Part shown: positions 2,095 to 9,732 of the stretch, one piece after another | How positions within the stretch are numbered: position 1 is the stretch's first letter | Layout of the letters: each line of letters opens with the position of its first letter | NCBI GenBank assembly: GCA_022652945.1 | Contig: JALCRV010000002.1 | Span: 124,001 to 188,000 of the forward strand | Direction: 5' to 3' | DNA length: 64,000 nt | DNA from: Bacilli bacterium | Lineage (GTDB): Bacteria; Bacillota_I; Bacilli_A; RFN20; CAG-288 | Position numbers and translations under genes: made by a program | Notes under the pieces: model-generated | What the model saw: only the letters and a program-made list of their open reading frames with translations | What the model was told of the DNA's origin: nothing | Database searches by the model: none

Positions 2095-2305
2095 CTTTCT
2101 CTTGTAAAGAGAAAGGGCGGAGTATAAGATATATTTGTTCCGTTGAGGCGAAAGAAGGGGAGAAATCCCTGGGCCACTCGCTTAGGGACCGCAAGGCGAA
2201 ACGAAAGATCCCGCATAACTAAGAGCACTAATAAGTGAATCAGGATGGTACCGCGGATTTAAATCCGTTCCTGAGAAAGCAGGTGCTTTTTTATTTGGAA
2301 GGAGC
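2095..2305 (+). promoter_or_regulatory. T-box leader of alaS
   Basis: The non-coding leader upstream of alaS carries the T-box core GGTACCGCGG at 2247-2256, with TGGT at 2246-2249 able to pair with the ACCA end of uncharged tRNA-Ala. The antiterminator half (CAGGAT...TTCCTG) competes with a terminator ending in the T-run at 2287-2292. A stem I with AGTA near 2120 precedes it. GCC at 2173-2175, followed by A, is a candidate Ala specifier by comparison with the ileS leader. The specifier choice is inference. Confidence 0.85.
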
Positions 2306-2315
2306 ATAAAAATTT

Positions 2316-4931
2316 ATGCGCAAAATGACAGCTGATGAAATTCGTGATATGTGGTTGGCCTTCTTCAAATCCAAAGGCCATTTTATCGAACCGTCCGCTA
2401 ATCTGATTCCGGTTAACGATCCGACTTTGCTTTGGATCAACGCCGGTGTCGCCGCTTTAAAGAAATACTTCGATGGCTCGGAAAGACCGGAGCATAGGAG
2501 AATCACCAATGCTCAGAAGTGCATCCGCACCAACGATATCGAAAATGTCGGCCATACCGCCCGGCATCATACTTTCTTCGAAATGCTCGGCAATTTCTCC
2601 ATCGGCGATTATTTCCGCCCCGAGGTAATCCCTTGGGCCTGCGAGTTGCTGATGGGCGATAAATGGTTCGCTTTCCCGAAAGAAAAACTGTATGTCACTT
2701 ACTATCCCGATGATGAAGAGACCAAGAATCTCTGGATTAAAAACGGGATGTTGGAAGACCATCTGGTCCCGTTGAAGTCCAACTTCTGGGAAATCGGCGA
2801 AGGACCTTGCGGCCCGGATACCGAAATCTATTTTGATCGCGGTGAGAAGTGGGATCCGAACCATATCGGTGACAAGCTTTTACGAGACGATATGGAAAAC
2901 GATCGTTACATCGAAATCTGGAACATCGTTTTCTCCCAGTTCAACGCTCAGCCGGGTACTCCCCGCGACCAGTATAAAGAACTGCCGCAGAAGAATATCG
3001 ATACCGGCGCTGGTTTGGAACGTTTCGCTTGTGTCATCCAGGAAGCCGATACGAACTTTGACACTGATTTATTTACTCCGACTATCGAGTGGATTAAGAA
3101 ACATTCTCCTTACCCTTATGAAGGCAAGTATCTTTTGGCTTACCGGGTCATCGCCGATCATATCCGCTCGGTGACTTTCGCCTTAGCTGATGGAGCTTCC
3201 TTCTCTAATGAAGGCCGCGGCTATGTCTTAAGAAGACTGGTTAGAAGAGCCGTCAGATACGCCAATGCCTTGAAACTGCCTACCGGTTCCTTATCTGAAC
3301 TAGTCGGGGTAGTCACCAAGACCATGGATCATTATTATCCGTATCTCGATAACGAACAATCCAAAGTCGCCAAGATGATCTTGGCTGAAGAGCAGAGATT
3401 TGAAAAGACCCTCCATCAGGGTGAAAACCTCCTTTCTTCTTATTTGGAGAAGAGCGGCGATATGTTATCAGGAGAAGATGCTTTCCGCCTTTCGGATACT
3501 TATGGCTTCCCGATTGAACTTACCGTGGAAATCGCATCCGAGCAAGGGAAGAAAGTCGATATGGAAGGCTTCAAGAAAGAATTGGCAGCTCAGAAAGAAA
3601 GAGCTAGAGCGGCTCGCGGAGACAGGGAATCCTTTAAATCCCAGTCGAAAGATCTGTTGGCTTTTACTTTGCCGAGTGAATTCACTTATGAAACCAAACC
3701 TTTGAAGAGCAAAGTCATCGGCTGCTTCAAAGATGGTGTTAAAGTCGACTCCATCGATGATGAGGGCGATATCATCCTGGCTAAGACGGATTTCTATGCG
3801 GAATCCGGCGGTCAGGTCGCTGATAAAGGCGAGATTGATTCCGCTTCGGCTGGCTTAAAAGTCCTCGATGTCCAAAAAGCCCCTAATAAGCAGTATCTGC
3901 ATCATGTCGAAGCTTTGTACGGGACAATCAAGGAAGGAGATGAAGTTGAACTGCATCCGGATTTTGCAAGGAGAGATATCATCAGGAAGAACCATTCTTC
4001 CTGCCACCTTTTCCAAGCGGCTCTGCAAAAGTTCGTCTCCAAAGATTGCCATCAGGCTGGTTCTTACGTCGATGATGAAATGATGAGATTTGATTTTACC
4101 TGCGACCGTAAACTCACCGATGAAGAGCTGGAGGAAATCGAAAGAGAAGTGAACCTCGATATCCAGAAAGCGATTCCTTGCGAGACGAAGATTATGCCGA
4201 TCGAAGAAGCGAAGAAGACCGGGGCGATGGCTCTGTTCAATGAAAAGTATGGCTCGGAAGTCAGGGTGGTTTCTTTTGAGGGTATCTCGAAAGAATTCTG
4301 CGCCGGGACCCATGTGGCGAATACGAAAGATATCGGTCTATATGTGATTGTCTCCGAGCAGGCTTTAGCCGCCGGGATCAGAAGAGTTGTCGGGTATACC
4401 GGGCTTAAAGCTTATGAGTATTTAAAGTCGAAAGAGGGTGCCTTAAGCGATATCGCCGCCTTTATCGGCGTGAAGTCCGATAAGGAAATCATCACCAAAT
4501 TAAAGGCGATGCAGGCGGAGAAAGATAATCTGAAAGCCCGTATTTCCGCTTTGGAAGGCAGCATTGTCGCAGCTAAACTGAAGCAGATTATCAAAGGGAT
4601 GCAAAAGTGTGATGGGTTTAACCTTTATGTCGATAGTGTCTCCGGCTTTAACCACGATCAGTTAGCGGAGATGATTAAGACCATCAATGTCAAAGATTCG
4701 TCTTCCTTGGTGATTCTCTTCGATTCGGAAGAATCCTCTCCCAAGGGGCAGATCGGTGTCGGTCTGGGCTTAGATGTGATCCAGGCTGGTCGCAAGGCGG
4801 GTCAGATTGTCAAAGAGCTCGCCACGAGGCTTAATGGCTCCGGTGGCGGCAAACCCGATTTGGCCTTCGGTGGTTTCACCGCTTTCGATCAAATCGAAAA
4901 GACTATCTCTGCTTTAGGGGAAATTCTTTAA
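2316..4931 (+). CDS. alaS: alanine--tRNA ligase
   Basis: Charges tRNA-Ala and edits mischarged Ser/Gly. The length of 871 aa is normal. The N-terminal class II catalytic core includes the TNDIENVG and RHHTFFEMLGNFS segments near residues 70-95. The editing domain has the zinc/editing residues HSSCH (HxxxH, about residue 559) and CAGTH (CxxxH, about 662). The C-terminal DHHA1 domain contains the glycine-rich GSGGGKPDLAFGG. A GGAAGGAG ribosome site lies upstream. An alternative start at Met4 is possible. It is controlled by the T-box leader and is followed directly by ruvX (TAA then ATG). Confidence 0.97.
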   Translation: MRKMTADEIRDMWLAFFKSKGHFIEPSANLIPVNDPTLLWINAGVAALKKYFDGSERPEHRRITNAQKCIRTNDIENVGHTARHHTFFEMLGNFSIGDYFRPEVIPWACELLMGDKWFAFPKEKLYVTYYPDDEETKNLWIKNGMLEDHLVPLKSNFWEIGEGPCGPDTEIYFDRGEKWDPNHIGDKLLRDDMENDRYIEIWNIVFSQFNAQPGTPRDQYKELPQKNIDTGAGLERFACVIQEADTNFDTDLFTPTIEWIKKHSPYPYEGKYLLAYRVIADHIRSVTFALADGASFSNEGRGYVLRRLVRRAVRYANALKLPTGSLSELVGVVTKTMDHYYPYLDNEQSKVAKMILAEEQRFEKTLHQGENLLSSYLEKSGDMLSGEDAFRLSDTYGFPIELTVEIASEQGKKVDMEGFKKELAAQKERARAARGDRESFKSQSKDLLAFTLPSEFTYETKPLKSKVIGCFKDGVKVDSIDDEGDIILAKTDFYAESGGQVADKGEIDSASAGLKVLDVQKAPNKQYLHHVEALYGTIKEGDEVELHPDFARRDIIRKNHSSCHLFQAALQKFVSKDCHQAGSYVDDEMMRFDFTCDRKLTDEELEEIEREVNLDIQKAIPCETKIMPIEEAKKTGAMALFNEKYGSEVRVVSFEGISKEFCAGTHVANTKDIGLYVIVSEQALAAGIRRVVGYTGLKAYEYLKSKEGALSDIAAFIGVKSDKEIITKLKAMQAEKDNLKARISALEGSIVAAKLKQIIKGMQKCDGFNLYVDSVSGFNHDQLAEMIKTINVKDSSSLVILFDSEESSPKGQIGVGLGLDVIQAGRKAGQIVKELATRLNGSGGGKPDLAFGGFTAFDQIEKTISALGEIL

Positions 4932-5360
4932 ATGAGTAAACGTCGCTTCCTTGGACTGGATGTCGGGACGGTCACTTTAGGCATTGCGATTTCCCGTACG
5001 GGAATCATCGCTTCCGGCTTAGAGGAGTTCCGTTATCCCCAAGGGGAGTGGCATATTCCTTTACAGGAAGTGGTCCGGCTTGTTAAACTTGAAGGGATAA
5101 CAAGTCTAGTTATCGGGCTGCCCCTGAATATGGATGGTAGCGAATCGGTGATGTCGAAGACGGTCAGAGAGTTCGTAAAGATGATAAAAGACGAACTTCC
5201 GGAAATTGAAATCATCTTCGAGGACGAGAGAAATTCGACAGAGAATGCTACCTCGTTGCTCCTAGAAGGTGATCTCAGCCGTAAGAAAAGAAAGAAAGTC
5301 ATCGATAAGGTCGCGGCCCAGTTGATCTTGGACCAGTACCTGGAAAGAGGAAATAATTGA
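4932..5360 (+). CDS. ruvX: Holliday junction resolvase-like protein RuvX/YqgF
   Basis: A small RNase H-fold protein (142 aa) of the RuvX/YqgF family, linked to Holliday junction resolution and 16S rRNA 5'-end processing. LGLDVGTVTLGIAIS at the N-terminus holds the first catalytic Asp. IGLPLNMDGSES and the DERNST segment carry further family residues, and the C-terminal KVIDKVAAQLILDQYL helix includes the last acidic residue. Its ATG follows the alaS stop codon without a gap, so the two are co-transcribed. The alaS-ruvX-DUF1292 order matches Bacillus. Confidence 0.92.
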   Translation: MSKRRFLGLDVGTVTLGIAISRTGIIASGLEEFRYPQGEWHIPLQEVVRLVKLEGITSLVIGLPLNMDGSESVMSKTVREFVKMIKDELPEIEIIFEDERNSTENATSLLLEGDLSRKKRKKVIDKVAAQLILDQYLERGNN

Positions 5361-5362
5361 AT

Positions 5363-5881
5363 ATGGCAGAAGAGAAAAAAAGAAACGAATCCGAAGATGG
5401 CGTCTTAGGTCCTTCCAAAGAAGAAGATAAGCATTATATCGTCCTGACCGATGAGAGCGGCAAGGATACCAAGGTAGAACTCTTGTTCTCCATCGTCTAT
5501 CATAAGACGGAGACCAGGTATCTTTATGTCGTCGATCCGGGCGATGAAGATGCGGTTATCATCTTCTCGGCTGACGATGACGGGAATCTCTTGATGGTCG
5601 ATGAGAAGGAGACTCCTAGTGAGACTATGGCTTTCCTGCAGGATACTTTCCAAGCCTATCTCCAGGGCGATTTAGCTCCGGTGAAGGATGGGGAAGACGA
5701 AGAGGAAGAAGAATGCGATGATCCTGATTGCGAATGCCACCATCACCATGATGGAGAAGAGAACGAATGCTGCGAAGGCGACGATGAGGAATGCCATTGC
5801 GGCTGCGGATGTGAAGATGAGAAAGAGCCTGAACCTGAGCAGGATTGCTGCTGCGGTGAGAAGAAAAATAAGAAGAAATAA
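5363..5881 (+). CDS. DUF1292 family protein with Cys/His-rich acidic tail
   Basis: Residues ~20-110 form a DUF1292 domain (YrzB-like), an acidic small fold found downstream of ruvX in many Bacillota and of unknown function. The remaining ~55 residues are an exceptional tail: 12 Cys, five His (HHHH plus one) and many Asp/Glu, in clusters such as ECHCGCGCED and DCCCGE, ending in a lysine patch. Such a tail should bind metal. A TTG at 5357 overlapping the ruvX stop has better spacing to the AGAGG site; the ATG at 5363 is chosen because it is a normal start. It is the last gene of the alaS operon. Confidence 0.85.
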   Translation: MAEEKKRNESEDGVLGPSKEEDKHYIVLTDESGKDTKVELLFSIVYHKTETRYLYVVDPGDEDAVIIFSADDDGNLLMVDEKETPSETMAFLQDTFQAYLQGDLAPVKDGEDEEEEECDDPDCECHHHHDGEENECCEGDDEECHCGCGCEDEKEPEPEQDCCCGEKKNKKK

Positions 5882-5895
5882 AACGTTTGGCATAT

Positions 5896-5926
5896 GAAAA
5901 GGCCTTTATGGCCTTTTTATTTTTTA
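5896..5926 (+). terminator. Rho-independent terminator of the alaS-ruvX-DUF1292 operon
   Basis: AAAGGCC / GGCCTTT stem with a short loop, followed by a T-rich run, starting 15 nt after the DUF1292 stop. Confidence 0.88.
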
Positions 5927-5942: not shown

Positions 5943-6707
5943 ATGAAAATTATTTCGTTTAATGTGAACGGCTTACGAGCCATCATAAAGAAAGATTTAC
6001 CGAAAGATTTCGCTTCTTTAGCCCCCGATGTCTTCATCATGGAAGAAATTAAGTTGACGGAAGAGGAACATAAGGATTTTCCTTTTGTTCCAGAAGGTTA
6101 CGAGGCTTACTGGACGGTCTCTAAGGAAAAGAAAGGCTACTCCGGAGTCGGAGTGCTGACGAGAGTAAAACCGATTAATGTTACTTACGGCCTATTGGAT
6201 GGCAAGTATGATAATGAAGGCCGCATCGTCACGTTGGAGTTCAAAGACTTTTTCCTGATCGGGTGTTACACTCCTAATTCTGGTGAGGAATTAAAAAGGC
6301 TGGATTTTCGGATGGGATTTGAGGAAGATCTGAAGGCCTATATGACAAAATTAGACCAGAAAAAGCCGGTGATTCTGACTGGCGATCTAAATGTCGCCCA
6401 CGAAGAAATCGATATAAAGAATCCGCAGGCGAATATCCATAATGCGGGCTTTACTAAAGAAGAAAGAGATAAGTTTTCTTCGCTTCTAGGAGCAGGTTTT
6501 AAAGATACCTTCCGTGAAATATATCCGGATACGGTCAAGTACTCTTGGTGGTCATATAGGTTTAATGCTAGGGCTACAAACGCCGGTTGGAGAATCGATT
6601 ATTTTGTCGTTTCAAACCGACTGATGGAAAAAGTAACTGATTCGAAGATCCATAATGAGGTTTTCGGCTCGGATCATTGCCCGGTTGAGTTGGATCTCCA
6701 AGACTGA
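5943..6707 (+). CDS. exoA: exodeoxyribonuclease III / AP endonuclease
   Basis: A 254-aa ExoIII-family base-excision repair nuclease that cuts 5' of abasic sites. Motifs in order: FNVNGLRAI (Asn at the metal site), MEEIKL with the metal-binding Glu (the family usually has QETK), CYTPN, the catalytic TGDLNVA, the WRIDYF segment and the terminal GSDHCPV with the catalytic Asp-His. A strong GGGAGGG ribosome site precedes the ATG. It is a single-gene unit between the operon terminator and the ileS promoter. Confidence 0.95.
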   Translation: MKIISFNVNGLRAIIKKDLPKDFASLAPDVFIMEEIKLTEEEHKDFPFVPEGYEAYWTVSKEKKGYSGVGVLTRVKPINVTYGLLDGKYDNEGRIVTLEFKDFFLIGCYTPNSGEELKRLDFRMGFEEDLKAYMTKLDQKKPVILTGDLNVAHEEIDIKNPQANIHNAGFTKEERDKFSSLLGAGFKDTFREIYPDTVKYSWWSYRFNARATNAGWRIDYFVVSNRLMEKVTDSKIHNEVFGSDHCPVELDLQD

Positions 6708-6790: not shown

Positions 6791-6796
6791 AAATGC

Positions 6797-6995
6797 TAGG
6801 CGTTGAGAAGACACGTGACCAAGAATTCTTCTTCTAGCGAGCTGTGAAGATGGTGTAAGACAGCAGAAAGAGCTTGAGTCATATCACTTGGAGCCGAGTC
6901 TGAAGATTAAGCGCAAAGATTATTTAAGGTCTTTGAAGCGGGATGGTACCGCGCAAAAGCGTTCCCGTATCAGAAGGCCTTTTTGTTTTGAAAGG
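6797..6995 (+). promoter_or_regulatory. T-box leader of ileS
   Basis: The T-box core GGTACCGCG lies at 6945-6953, with TGGT positioned to pair with the ACCA end of tRNA-Ile. The antiterminator (GCGGGAT...GTTCCCG) competes with a terminator whose GGCCTTTTTG arm lies near 6977-6986. ATC at 6883-6885, followed by A, is the candidate Ile specifier. The ATG at 6943 lies inside the T-box core and is not a start codon. Confidence 0.9.
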
Positions 6996-7005
6996 AGAAA
7001 AGAGT

Positions 7006-9732
7006 ATGGAACTGAAAAAGACATTGCTGATGTTTAAGGGGACTTTCCCGATGAAAGCCGATTTAGCTCACCGCGAGCCGGATTTTGTCAAGCGTTGGGA
7101 TAAGGACGATATCTATAACAAAATGCGGACGAATCGCCAAGGGCAGACGGATTTCTATCTCCATGATGGCCCGCCTTATGCTAACGGAGACATCCATTGC
7201 GGACATGCTTTAAACAAGGTCGTCAAAGATATCATCAATCGCTATAAGGCTTTAAAAGGTTTCCATATTACCTATATCCCTGGCTGGGATACCCACGGTC
7301 TGCCGATTGAACAGCAAGTGACGAAAGCGGGCGTGGATCGTAAAGCAATCCCGGTTGCCGAGTTCCGAAAGTACTGCATGAAGTTCGCTTATAAACAAGT
7401 CGATCGCCAGATGGTTCAGTTCAAGAGGCTGGGCGTTCTTGGCGATTTTGCCCATCCATATATGACTTTGACAAAAGACTATGAGGCTGCAGAAATCTCC
7501 GTTTTTGCGGATATGGCCTTAAAAGGCTACATCTATAAGGGACTTAAGCCGGTGGCTTGGTCTCCTTCTTCCGAGTGTGCTTTGGCTGAAGCCGAAATTG
7601 AGTATCACGATGTGACAGCAAAGACAATCTATGTTCGTTTCCAAGTGAGTGAAGGCAAGGGCATCCTTTCCAAGGATGATTACTTTGTCATTTGGACCAC
7701 CACGCCTTGGACGATTCCGGCCGATACGGCTGTCTGCTTGAACCCGAAGATGGTTTATGGCTTATATAAGACCGATAAAGGAAATCTGGTTTTCCTCTCC
7801 GATTTAAAGGATCAATTGATTAAAGAACTCGATCTTAAGGAATGCGAATTAGTTAAATCCTTTACTGGCAAGGAAGTCGAATATTTGAAAGTCCGCCATC
7901 CTTTATATCCTGATAAAGAATCTTTAGTTATCGTTGGAGATCATGTCACTTCCGACTCAGGCACGGGTTGTGTCCATACGGCGGGCGGGCATGGCTTAGA
8001 CGATTACAAGGTTTGCTTGAAGTATGATATTCCTCCGTTCTGCCCGGTCGATGAAAAAGGCTTTATGACTGAAGAAGCAGGCGAAAGATTGAAGGGGCTG
8101 TTCTATGAAGACGCCAATAACGAGGTCATCAAGATGCTGACCGAAACCGGCGCCCTTTTAGCGAGCAAGGATATCACCCACGCCTATCCCCATGATTGGA
8201 GAACGAATAAACCGGTGATTTTCCGCGCCACTCCTCAATGGTTCTGTTCGATTTCGAAAGTCAGGGAAGCGATTCTTTCGGAAATCGAGAAGACTTCCTT
8301 TAAGCCGGAATGGGGCAAACTGAGACTGCATAACATGGTGGCCCAACGTGAAGACTGGTGTATCTCCCGTCAGCGCGCTTGGGGTGTGCCGCTTCCGATT
8401 ATCTATAACGAAGACGGATCTCCAATCGTGGAGAAAGCGGTCTTCGATCATATCGAAGAGCTTTTCAGGGAGTTCGGATCGAATATTTGGTTTGAGAAAG
8501 AAGCGAAAGACTTGCTGCCGGAAGGCTATCAGAATCCAGCTTCGCCTCACGGGCTGTTTACAAAAGAAAAGGACATCATGGATGTCTGGTTCGATTCAGG
8601 CTCTTCCTGGCTCGGATCCGATATTAAGCGCGGGGCTCCTTATCCTGCCGATCTTTACTTTGAAGGCACCGATCAGTACCGCGGATGGTATAATTCGTCT
8701 TTGACCTTGGCGGTTGCGACCGGACATGCTTCGCCTTATAAGGCGATTCTGACCCATGGTTTCATCGTGGACCAGAACGGACAGAAGTTCTCTAAATCCT
8801 TAGGTAACGGAATCGCTCCGGAAGATATTTACGGAGTATACGGGGCCGATATTCTCCGTCTGTGGTCGGCTTCGATTGACTTTACGATGGCGGAAATCAA
8901 ACTTTCAGAGGATTTGATCAAGACGATTGGTGAATCGTACCGCAAGATTCGCAATACCTTTAAGTTCATGCTTTCGAATCTTTACGATTCAGAGACTGAA
9001 ATGTTGGATCTTTCCAAGCCTTATAAGTATTCTCCGATGGATGAACTGATTCTGAATAAACTTAATGAAGTCGTTGTTCAGGCTGATAAAGAGTATGCCT
9101 CTTATGATTTATTGGGCGTTACTTCTTTAGTTGAGAATTTCCTGATTAACGATCTTTCTGCTTTCTATTTGGATGCAGCGAAGGACACTTTATATTGCGA
9201 GGGCGTGGATTCCTTAGCGAGAAAAGGTGTTCAACATGTCATTTATACGATCGTTAAAGATTTAGCGATCATTCTTTCGCCGATTCTGCCTTTCACGATG
9301 GAAGAAGTTAACGATAATCTGAAGGACAAAGTTCCGACTTCAATTGCGTTGGCTGATTATCCTGAGGTCAAGACTGATTCCCGCTTAGGCGAGATTTACG
9401 ACCAATTCCTGACGATCCGGGCTAATTCCTTGAAGGCCTTGGAAGCCAAGCGAGCGGAGAATGTCATTTCTTCTAACGCCGAAGCGGAAATCAGTTATAC
9501 TTATACGACGGCTTTAGCTAAAGAAACCGTAGAGTTCCTAGGCGAAAAACTGATCGCTAAAGAATTGCTCGTCGCCTCCTTCCACGCCTTAGATGGTGAA
9601 GAAGAGAAAACTGAAGTCTCCCACTTTAAGGGTGAAAGATGCGAAAGATGCTGGAACTATTACGATGAGCTTACCGTCGATGAGGAAGGTCACCATCTCT
9701 GCAAGCGCTGCAGCGAAGTGATAAAAGGATGA
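7006..9732 (+). CDS. ileS: isoleucine--tRNA ligase
   Basis: Class I synthetase of 908 aa. The HIGH signature appears as HCGH near residue 64 and KMSKS as KFSKS near 595. The CP1 editing domain sits between them (WTTTPWTIPADTA and the GTGCVHTAGGHG loop). The C-terminal zinc finger has RCERCWN and LCKRC. The start is ATG at 7006 because it has an AAAGGAG ribosome site 8 nt upstream and lies after the T-box terminator; the longer frame from 6943 would run through the T-box. It heads an operon with lspA and rluD. Confidence 0.97.
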   Translation: MELKKTLLMFKGTFPMKADLAHREPDFVKRWDKDDIYNKMRTNRQGQTDFYLHDGPPYANGDIHCGHALNKVVKDIINRYKALKGFHITYIPGWDTHGLPIEQQVTKAGVDRKAIPVAEFRKYCMKFAYKQVDRQMVQFKRLGVLGDFAHPYMTLTKDYEAAEISVFADMALKGYIYKGLKPVAWSPSSECALAEAEIEYHDVTAKTIYVRFQVSEGKGILSKDDYFVIWTTTPWTIPADTAVCLNPKMVYGLYKTDKGNLVFLSDLKDQLIKELDLKECELVKSFTGKEVEYLKVRHPLYPDKESLVIVGDHVTSDSGTGCVHTAGGHGLDDYKVCLKYDIPPFCPVDEKGFMTEEAGERLKGLFYEDANNEVIKMLTETGALLASKDITHAYPHDWRTNKPVIFRATPQWFCSISKVREAILSEIEKTSFKPEWGKLRLHNMVAQREDWCISRQRAWGVPLPIIYNEDGSPIVEKAVFDHIEELFREFGSNIWFEKEAKDLLPEGYQNPASPHGLFTKEKDIMDVWFDSGSSWLGSDIKRGAPYPADLYFEGTDQYRGWYNSSLTLAVATGHASPYKAILTHGFIVDQNGQKFSKSLGNGIAPEDIYGVYGADILRLWSASIDFTMAEIKLSEDLIKTIGESYRKIRNTFKFMLSNLYDSETEMLDLSKPYKYSPMDELILNKLNEVVVQADKEYASYDLLGVTSLVENFLINDLSAFYLDAAKDTLYCEGVDSLARKGVQHVIYTIVKDLAIILSPILPFTMEEVNDNLKDKVPTSIALADYPEVKTDSRLGEIYDQFLTIRANSLKALEAKRAENVISSNAEAEISYTYTTALAKETVEFLGEKLIAKELLVASFHALDGEEEKTEVSHFKGERCERCWNYYDELTVDEEGHHLCKRCSEVIKG

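Follow-up and report, generated by a model that had tools for sequence, protein, structure and literature searches.

Gene context of the DUF1292 locus

We analyzed a stretch of 64,000 nucleotides (hereafter the window; positions 124,001 to 188,000 of contig JALCRV010000002.1, assembly GCA_022652945.1, a member of the Bacilli), in which a gene of the DUF1292 (YrzB) type lies directly behind ruvX and close to alaS. The features of this locus, in window coordinates, are as follows.

2103..2275, + strand: T-box leader preceding alaS (31.9 bits and E = 2e-4 for Rfam RF00230), with the AGGATGGTACCGCG element present
2316..4931, + strand: alaS, alanyl-tRNA synthetase (Pfam PF01411, PF07973, PF02272)
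4932..5360, + strand: ruvX (yrrK/yqgF), immediately 5′ of the DUF1292 gene (PF03652, E = 8.9e-35)
5363..5881, + strand: DUF1292-like (YrzB-type) protein of 172 amino acids (ORF list, leave-genus-out profile, PF06949 matches in relatives)
5426..5674, + strand: predicted folded core, approximately residues 22-104, five strands and one helix (AlphaFold2 model)
5675..5878, + strand: acidic tail rich in Cys (12) and His (5), spanning residues 105-172 and predicted to be disordered (composition count, AlphaFold2 pLDDT, tails in relatives)
5894..5920, + strand: terminator-like hairpin with a T run just 3′ of the DUF1292 gene (pattern scan)
5943-6707: Exo_endo_phos gene, downstream of the DUF1292 gene (PF03372)
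6943-9732: ileS, after the Exo_endo_phos gene (named by eye)

The start of the DUF1292 gene was taken as the ATG at 5363, with an in-frame TTG six bases further upstream at 5357, and its stop codon ends at 5881. Terminator-like sites are no more common in the region than in shuffled sequence (4 against a mean of 5.8), and it is therefore the position of the hairpin, just behind the gene, that speaks for it. The T-box leader of alaS was found at a relaxed threshold alone and went unreported at the Rfam gathering threshold (93). A second T-box leader, at 6794-6969 upstream of ileS, scored 50.8 bits, which is likewise under that threshold. AlaRS is a zinc enzyme, and the product of the window's alaS carries the motifs NHSSCH (from residue 559) and CAGTH (from residue 662), which we take to be putative zinc ligands.

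The preliminary description of this DNA had presented the gene as a conserved partner of alaS and ruvX, and the Pfam matches in the window confirm that context. Among loci with enough sequence (and with rows below 55 bits excluded), ruvX lies directly upstream at all 41 tailed loci and at 137 of the 139 untailed ones, and alaS is present in the context of 17 of 17 tailed and 84 of 96 untailed loci. Because tailed and untailed loci share this arrangement, the position beside ruvX and alaS is a property of the family rather than of the tail; DUF1292 proteins are widespread beside these two genes in the class. A literature search combining AlaRS, zinc, T-box and ruvX returned nothing relevant.

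A divergent member of the DUF1292 family

The whole window protein matched no Pfam family at E ≤ 0.001, the core by itself reached 17.1 bits against PF06949 (E = 0.01; cut-off 24 bits), and a PF06949 search across the window's own genome gave no match. Nevertheless, the core was matched at 42.6 bits (E = 3e-12, Z = 1000) by a profile of 132 relatives from which the window's genus (four rows) had been excluded, these relatives having been recruited by searches that started from the window protein, and 128 of the 136 aligned relatives matched PF06949 at E ≤ 0.001. These two results support homology of the core to DUF1292, and we regard the window protein as a divergent member of the family; the DUF1292 label given in the preliminary description thus holds for the homology of the core, although the protein itself falls under the PF06949 cut-off. 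Core sequence and gene order with ruvX and alaS are what the window protein has in common with PF06949 (YrzB, UPF0473), which in Pfam is a 75-position domain of unknown function, whereas the window protein bears a long tail.

The AlphaFold2 model, built from an alignment of 136 sequences, predicts strands at residues 24-29, 35-46, 51-58, 61-70 and 76-78 and a helix at 86-100. Block means of pLDDT are 91-96 over residues 21-100 and 44-60 from residue 111 onward, and in this model the core is folded and the tail disordered. Searching the PDB with the core model in Foldseek gave 0 matches at E ≤ 0.001, and the best E in a profile search of PDB sequences with the core family was 0.06. VIA-align placed the core model closest to H. 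pylori DsbG (3tdg, Z 6.1), followed by Tudor-, SH3- and polo-box-like folds; every row had Z below 8, and the likenesses may perhaps reflect merely a common arrangement. In an excerpt of one study, yrzB is tabulated among genes that co-evolve with polC, as a "putative anti-sigma factor" (PMC3814617). The titles and abstract openings retrieved under DUF1292, YrzB and UPF0473 gave no account of family function.

Composition of the tail

The 12 Cys and 5 His singled out in the preliminary description, including the motifs CHCGCGC, CCC and HHHH, are all present in the last 68 residues. Other proxy genes of the window (the longest non-overlapping ORFs, 46 counting the DUF1292 ORF) contain 1.0% Cys and 1.5% His, relative to which the tail is enriched approximately 18-fold and 5-fold, respectively. 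At the window background the binomial chance of at least 12 Cys in 68 residues is 4e-12, a value that measures oddness and is no blind test, given that the stretch was picked for its Cys. The densest 40 residues of the tail hold 15 Cys and His together; the runner-up in the window, at the C-terminus of the ORF at 6943-9732, holds seven, and no comparable stretch was found in the other proxy genes. When the window's own genome was searched with the tail alone, the matches listed at E ≤ 10 comprised only the tail itself. The Cys codons are 11 TGC and one TGT and the His codons are mixed, and the tail is no simple DNA repeat.

Appendages among relatives

The core profile matched 244 of the 279 genomes of the order (8 of them solely through a weak region in a longer protein of the sister genus g2) and 304 of the 395 genomes of the class. 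We then counted as an appendage at least four Cys and His beyond the core, in all examined proteins whose core scored 45 bits or more. By this measure 54 of 249 distinct relatives have a C-terminal appendage, 5 an N-terminal one, 0 both and 190 neither, indicating that the core does not need an appendage. Relatives from the order and class were chosen largely for long reading frames, and the ratio of 54 to 249 is therefore no frequency. The rows below 45 bits that were excluded from this set (the g2 proteins and many from families f16 and f21) showed no appendage. Tails were found in 11 of our coded families of the class, and the last 40 proteins examined (f10, f12, f16, f17, f19, f21, f27, f28) contributed two.

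Tail conservation in relatives had been proposed in the preliminary description as a check, and the outcome is mixed, though on balance mostly favorable: two of four other genomes of the window's genus (G003 and G002) keep a long Cys/His tail, but a third (G001) has only CCSSC near its end, yet five His at its N-terminus (MAHEHENHEHSH). The fourth (G004, 65% complete) gave no core match, and G008, from another genus of the window's family, has a plain end. Elsewhere in the order tails occur in G039 and G034 (f8), G110 and G111 (f5, genus g36) and G027 (f6), and the examined proteins of f2, f3, f4 and the remainder of f5 have plain ends. Among the proteins examined in the wider class, which were mostly long frames, tails were found in f12, f14, f20, f23, f25, f27 and f28; they are Cys-only in five of seven f27 proteins and mainly His in three of eight f28 proteins.

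Named records gave a similar range of states. A scan with alignment A3 yielded 80 named loci (a scan with the window protein alone confirmed none), some of which, such as L166 and L118, duplicate proteins already in the genome set. Eight of the 80 have at least four Cys and His behind the core: five from Erysipelothrix, together with Beduini massiliensis, Longibaculum muris and an uncultured Erysipelotrichaceae bacterium. No tail is present in a further Erysipelothrix record, which is a MAG, or in records of the Bacillus type or of Listeria, Granulicatella, Carnobacterium or Streptococcus. The earlier remark that the tail is unlike known YrzB proteins accordingly stands for Bacillaceae (0 of 13 proteins tailed) and Listeria (0 of 1), but not for the many tailed proteins of Erysipelotrichales and of other lineages of the class. 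Relatives that lack a tail often end in short acidic stretches. In one record (L170), which the tree does not include, the frame is interrupted within the core; the tblastn match of this record extends to query residue 122, and it may be tailed though counted as absent.

A His-rich N-terminus (e.g., MSHEHDHEHDHDHEEHEH) with no long C-terminal tail was observed in Granulicatella balaenopterae (L216), Carnobacterium sp. (L217), Streptococcus sp. (L222), Granulicatella elegans (L231) and the protein of G001 from the window's own genus (L004). With His-rich N-termini replacing tails in these five relatives, the appendage can evidently sit at the opposite end of the core.

Conservation and history of the tail

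We compared tails in 31 pairs, which are not independent of one another, drawn from nine hand-chosen groups (15 pairs within a genus and 16 within two wider groups). Cys was identical in 338 of 438 cases (77%), His in 158 of 286 (55%), Asp and Glu in 498 of 964 (52%), Gly in 92 of 234 (39%) and other residues in 82 of 355 (23%). Merging Asp with Glu raises the acids to 69% and thereby narrows the lead of Cys. Within genera the corresponding values are 79% for Cys, 72% for His and 56% for the acids, or 72% with Asp and Glu merged. Matches of Cys and His total 248, against 149-179 in 20 shuffles, although only 16 of the 31 pairs exceed the highest of their own 20 shuffles; those that do not include the pairs of g17 and g36 and both pairs with G002 of the window's genus. 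The spacing of Cys differs between lineages.

We then mapped the tail onto a tree of the core, built from 86 columns and 188 rows (42 of them tailed; rows below 55 bits excluded) and containing many unresolved forks. The tree requires at least 13 changes of tail state, of which at least four are forced by well supported branches, whereas shuffled tail labels require 38 changes. The tail therefore runs in lineages and came or went several times, gain and loss being indistinguishable on the core tree. Taken together, the tail is real, non-random and recurrent.

These patterns bear on two explanations in which metal plays no part. One is that the tail is an acidic entropic or solubility tail whose Cys and His are incidental. 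The tails are indeed acidic, as are the short ends of many tail-free relatives, and the acids are kept nearly as well as Cys once Asp and Glu are merged; against this, the window tail is strongly enriched in both Cys and His, and in some pairs Cys persists despite synonymous codon change where the neighboring acids do not. In one f27 pair, for example, all six of six Cys are kept, five of them by a different codon, and Asp/Glu is kept at one of seven positions. We therefore regard an incidental origin of the Cys and His as quite improbable. The other explanation, a neutral expansion of low-complexity sequence through repeat slippage, would fit the variable length and order of the tails among lineages and the HD repeats that differ in length between Erysipelothrix anatis and E. 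aquatica. It is harder to reconcile with the mixed codons of the repeats, with Cys conserved through synonymous change, and with tails that persist within several genera while their linkers change, and we consider it scarcely credible.

Putative ligands and candidate metals

Erysipelothrix offers the clearest view of the exchange between Cys and His. The tail of E. tonsillarum contains both residues (CACGHNH...CNCGCGHDHSH); at the same site the tail of E. inopinata is mostly His with one Cys, and those of E. anatis, E. aquatica and Erysipelothrix sp. HDW6A are Cys-free HDHDHD tails. G735 (f25) likewise has a pure HD/His tail. As metal binding is common to Cys and His and thiol chemistry is not, the exchange of one for the other at a single site argues for a metal role rather than a redox one. 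This weighs on the possibility that the tail is a thiol buffer or redox sensor, in which Cys would form disulfides or scavenge electrophiles or oxidants. Adjacent Cys (CC, CCC), the Cys-only tails of most f27 proteins and the rank of Cys as the best-kept tail residue would all suit such a role; His, however, is incapable of thiol chemistry, and Cys-free His tails occupy the same place in Erysipelothrix, in G735 and in two f28 proteins, making a thiol function very unlikely. The preliminary description had likened the tail to a metal reservoir or chaperone, and comparison now backs metal binding as its probable property, through the recurrence of tails, the conservation of Cys and the Cys-His exchange at the same site.

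Which metal would be bound is a separate matter. If the protein were a nickel chaperone, the tail would feed Ni to HypB or to urease accessory proteins, as SlyD does for the E. coli hydrogenase, and poly-His/Asp tails would suit this metal. However, NiFe hydrogenase or urease alpha was matched in 0 of 32 tailed genomes, the window's own included, 29 of which have a completeness of 90% or more and a contamination of 5% or less, whereas the same searches matched the two enzymes in 5 and 4 of 14 control genomes. Furthermore, 18 of the 32 had either no cobW-family match or a best one no better than 2e-6. With no enzyme match in any of these 32 tailed genomes, delivery of nickel to hydrogenase or urease is unlikely as a general role. 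The window's own genome does encode HypB (L246:2398-3075, contig C11 of G000; TIGR00073, 225.9 bits against a cut-off of 121.2), which keeps nickel conceivable for the window's genus; in favor of nickel one may also cite G003, of the same genus, where two adjacent ORFs with cobW-family matches look HypB-like by eye (L247). On the whole we judge the nickel reading unlikely. It may be noted separately that HypB occurs in the window's genome alongside no match to NiFe hydrogenase or urease alpha.

Zinc is the commonest metal suited to Cys-only, His-only and mixed sites, and since it fits both ligands and the nickel enzymes were not matched, we infer that it is the likeliest metal. The zinc-uptake protein ZnuA does not follow the tail: it exceeded the cut-off in 19 of the 32 tailed genomes and in 12 of 28 used for comparison, with no correction for relatedness and with not all of the comparison genomes examined for tails. 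Literature searches on Erysipelothrix with zinc and histidine-rich sequences found nothing, and those on DUF1292 with histidine-rich sequences and on disordered metal-binding tails found no metal role for the family.

Comparison with known metal-binding tails and proposed role

The closest known counterpart is SlyD, which in an excerpt of one paper is described for E. coli and H. pylori as having a C-terminal extension that varies in length and is rich in His, Cys and carboxylates, with 13 His and 6 Cys in the E. coli protein (PMC7840056). The window protein also has a His/Cys/acid-rich C-terminal tail that is predicted to be disordered. The two differ in that the body of SlyD is an FKBP/chaperone, and FKBP was not among the Pfam matches of the window protein listed to E = 10 (HMMER filters drop most weak matches), and in that the 32 tailed DUF1292 genomes lack a hydrogenase or urease match. 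H. pylori HspA provides a second counterpart, being, in the same excerpt, a GroES protein with a lineage-specific His/Cys-rich extension, associated with nickel and confined to Helicobacter (PMC7840056). A lineage-specific His/Cys extension on a conserved protein is just what DUF1292 tails resemble; the scaffold of HspA is GroES, however, a family (Cpn10) likewise absent among the Pfam matches of the window protein listed to E = 10, and its extension is limited to one genus, whereas DUF1292 appendages occur in many lineages and at both termini. Metallothioneins and storage proteins of the Hpn type are Cys- or His-rich and stand alone. They share with DUF1292 tails this richness and the likelihood of multiple metal sites, but the DUF1292 tail is appended to a folded core with a conserved gene context. 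By analogy, then, the DUF1292 tail is a SlyD-like tail on another scaffold: its kind is known, and the scaffold would be new.

The explanation we favor, and regard as probable though far from assured, is that the protein combines a DUF1292 core with a disordered metal-binding tail, most likely for Zn(II), and buffers or donates metal locally. The tail would hold several metal ions of borderline character, Zn(II) foremost among them, in loose and exchangeable sites built from Cys and His with Asp and Glu around them, and the core would tether this metal load to a partner, so that the protein might serve as the SlyD and HspA tails do on their own scaffolds. What we observed is the tail, its disorder in the model, its recurrence, the conservation of Cys, the exchange of Cys and His between relatives and the ruvX/alaS context; metal binding in the cell, zinc as the metal, and buffering or donation are inferred. 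More broadly, the recurrence of the tails suggests that the handling of metal, probably zinc, is a role that the family has taken on repeatedly.

One may postulate a more far-reaching scenario in which DUF1292 is a general zinc-handling scaffold at the translation machinery, its core docked on an operon partner such as AlaRS. The His/Cys tract, at either end depending on the lineage, would keep zinc near AlaRS; zinc-starved AlaRS would leave more tRNA-Ala uncharged, which would turn on the T-box of the operon, expected to be a sensor of alanyl-tRNA, and the T-box response would thereby switch on AlaRS's own zinc donor. We hold this general scheme to be a quite doubtful one, and the zinc link between the tail and AlaRS is offered as an idea only.

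Returning to the buffer or donor role, the recurrence of metal-binding appendages at both termini may be a hint to the function of the family, or to a role for which it can be recruited. If the metal and the partner are found, the protein would represent a device that buffers metal in the cytosol on a new scaffold, and interest would rise further if the DUF1292 core proved to be a metal-dependent partner of a neighbor such as AlaRS.

Other variants of the family

Several relatives depart from the common architecture in other ways. The sister genus g2 (L047-L054) has a conserved protein of approximately 320-360 amino acids with a weak DUF1292-like region, and its L047 representative had no match at E ≤ 0.01 in Pfam or NCBIfam. 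Two proteins of f13 (L273 and L274, from G294 and G283) carry a C-terminal extension of approximately 90 residues with no Cys or His, and a second DUF1292 gene lies close behind the extended one. In L064 (G097) the N-terminal part of DUF1292 is apparently duplicated, giving two matched stretches. Lastly, the DUF1292 end of a record titled Chryseobacterium sp. ISL-80 (L203) is almost like that of Bacillus sp. ISL-55 (L189), and the title is perhaps mislabelled.
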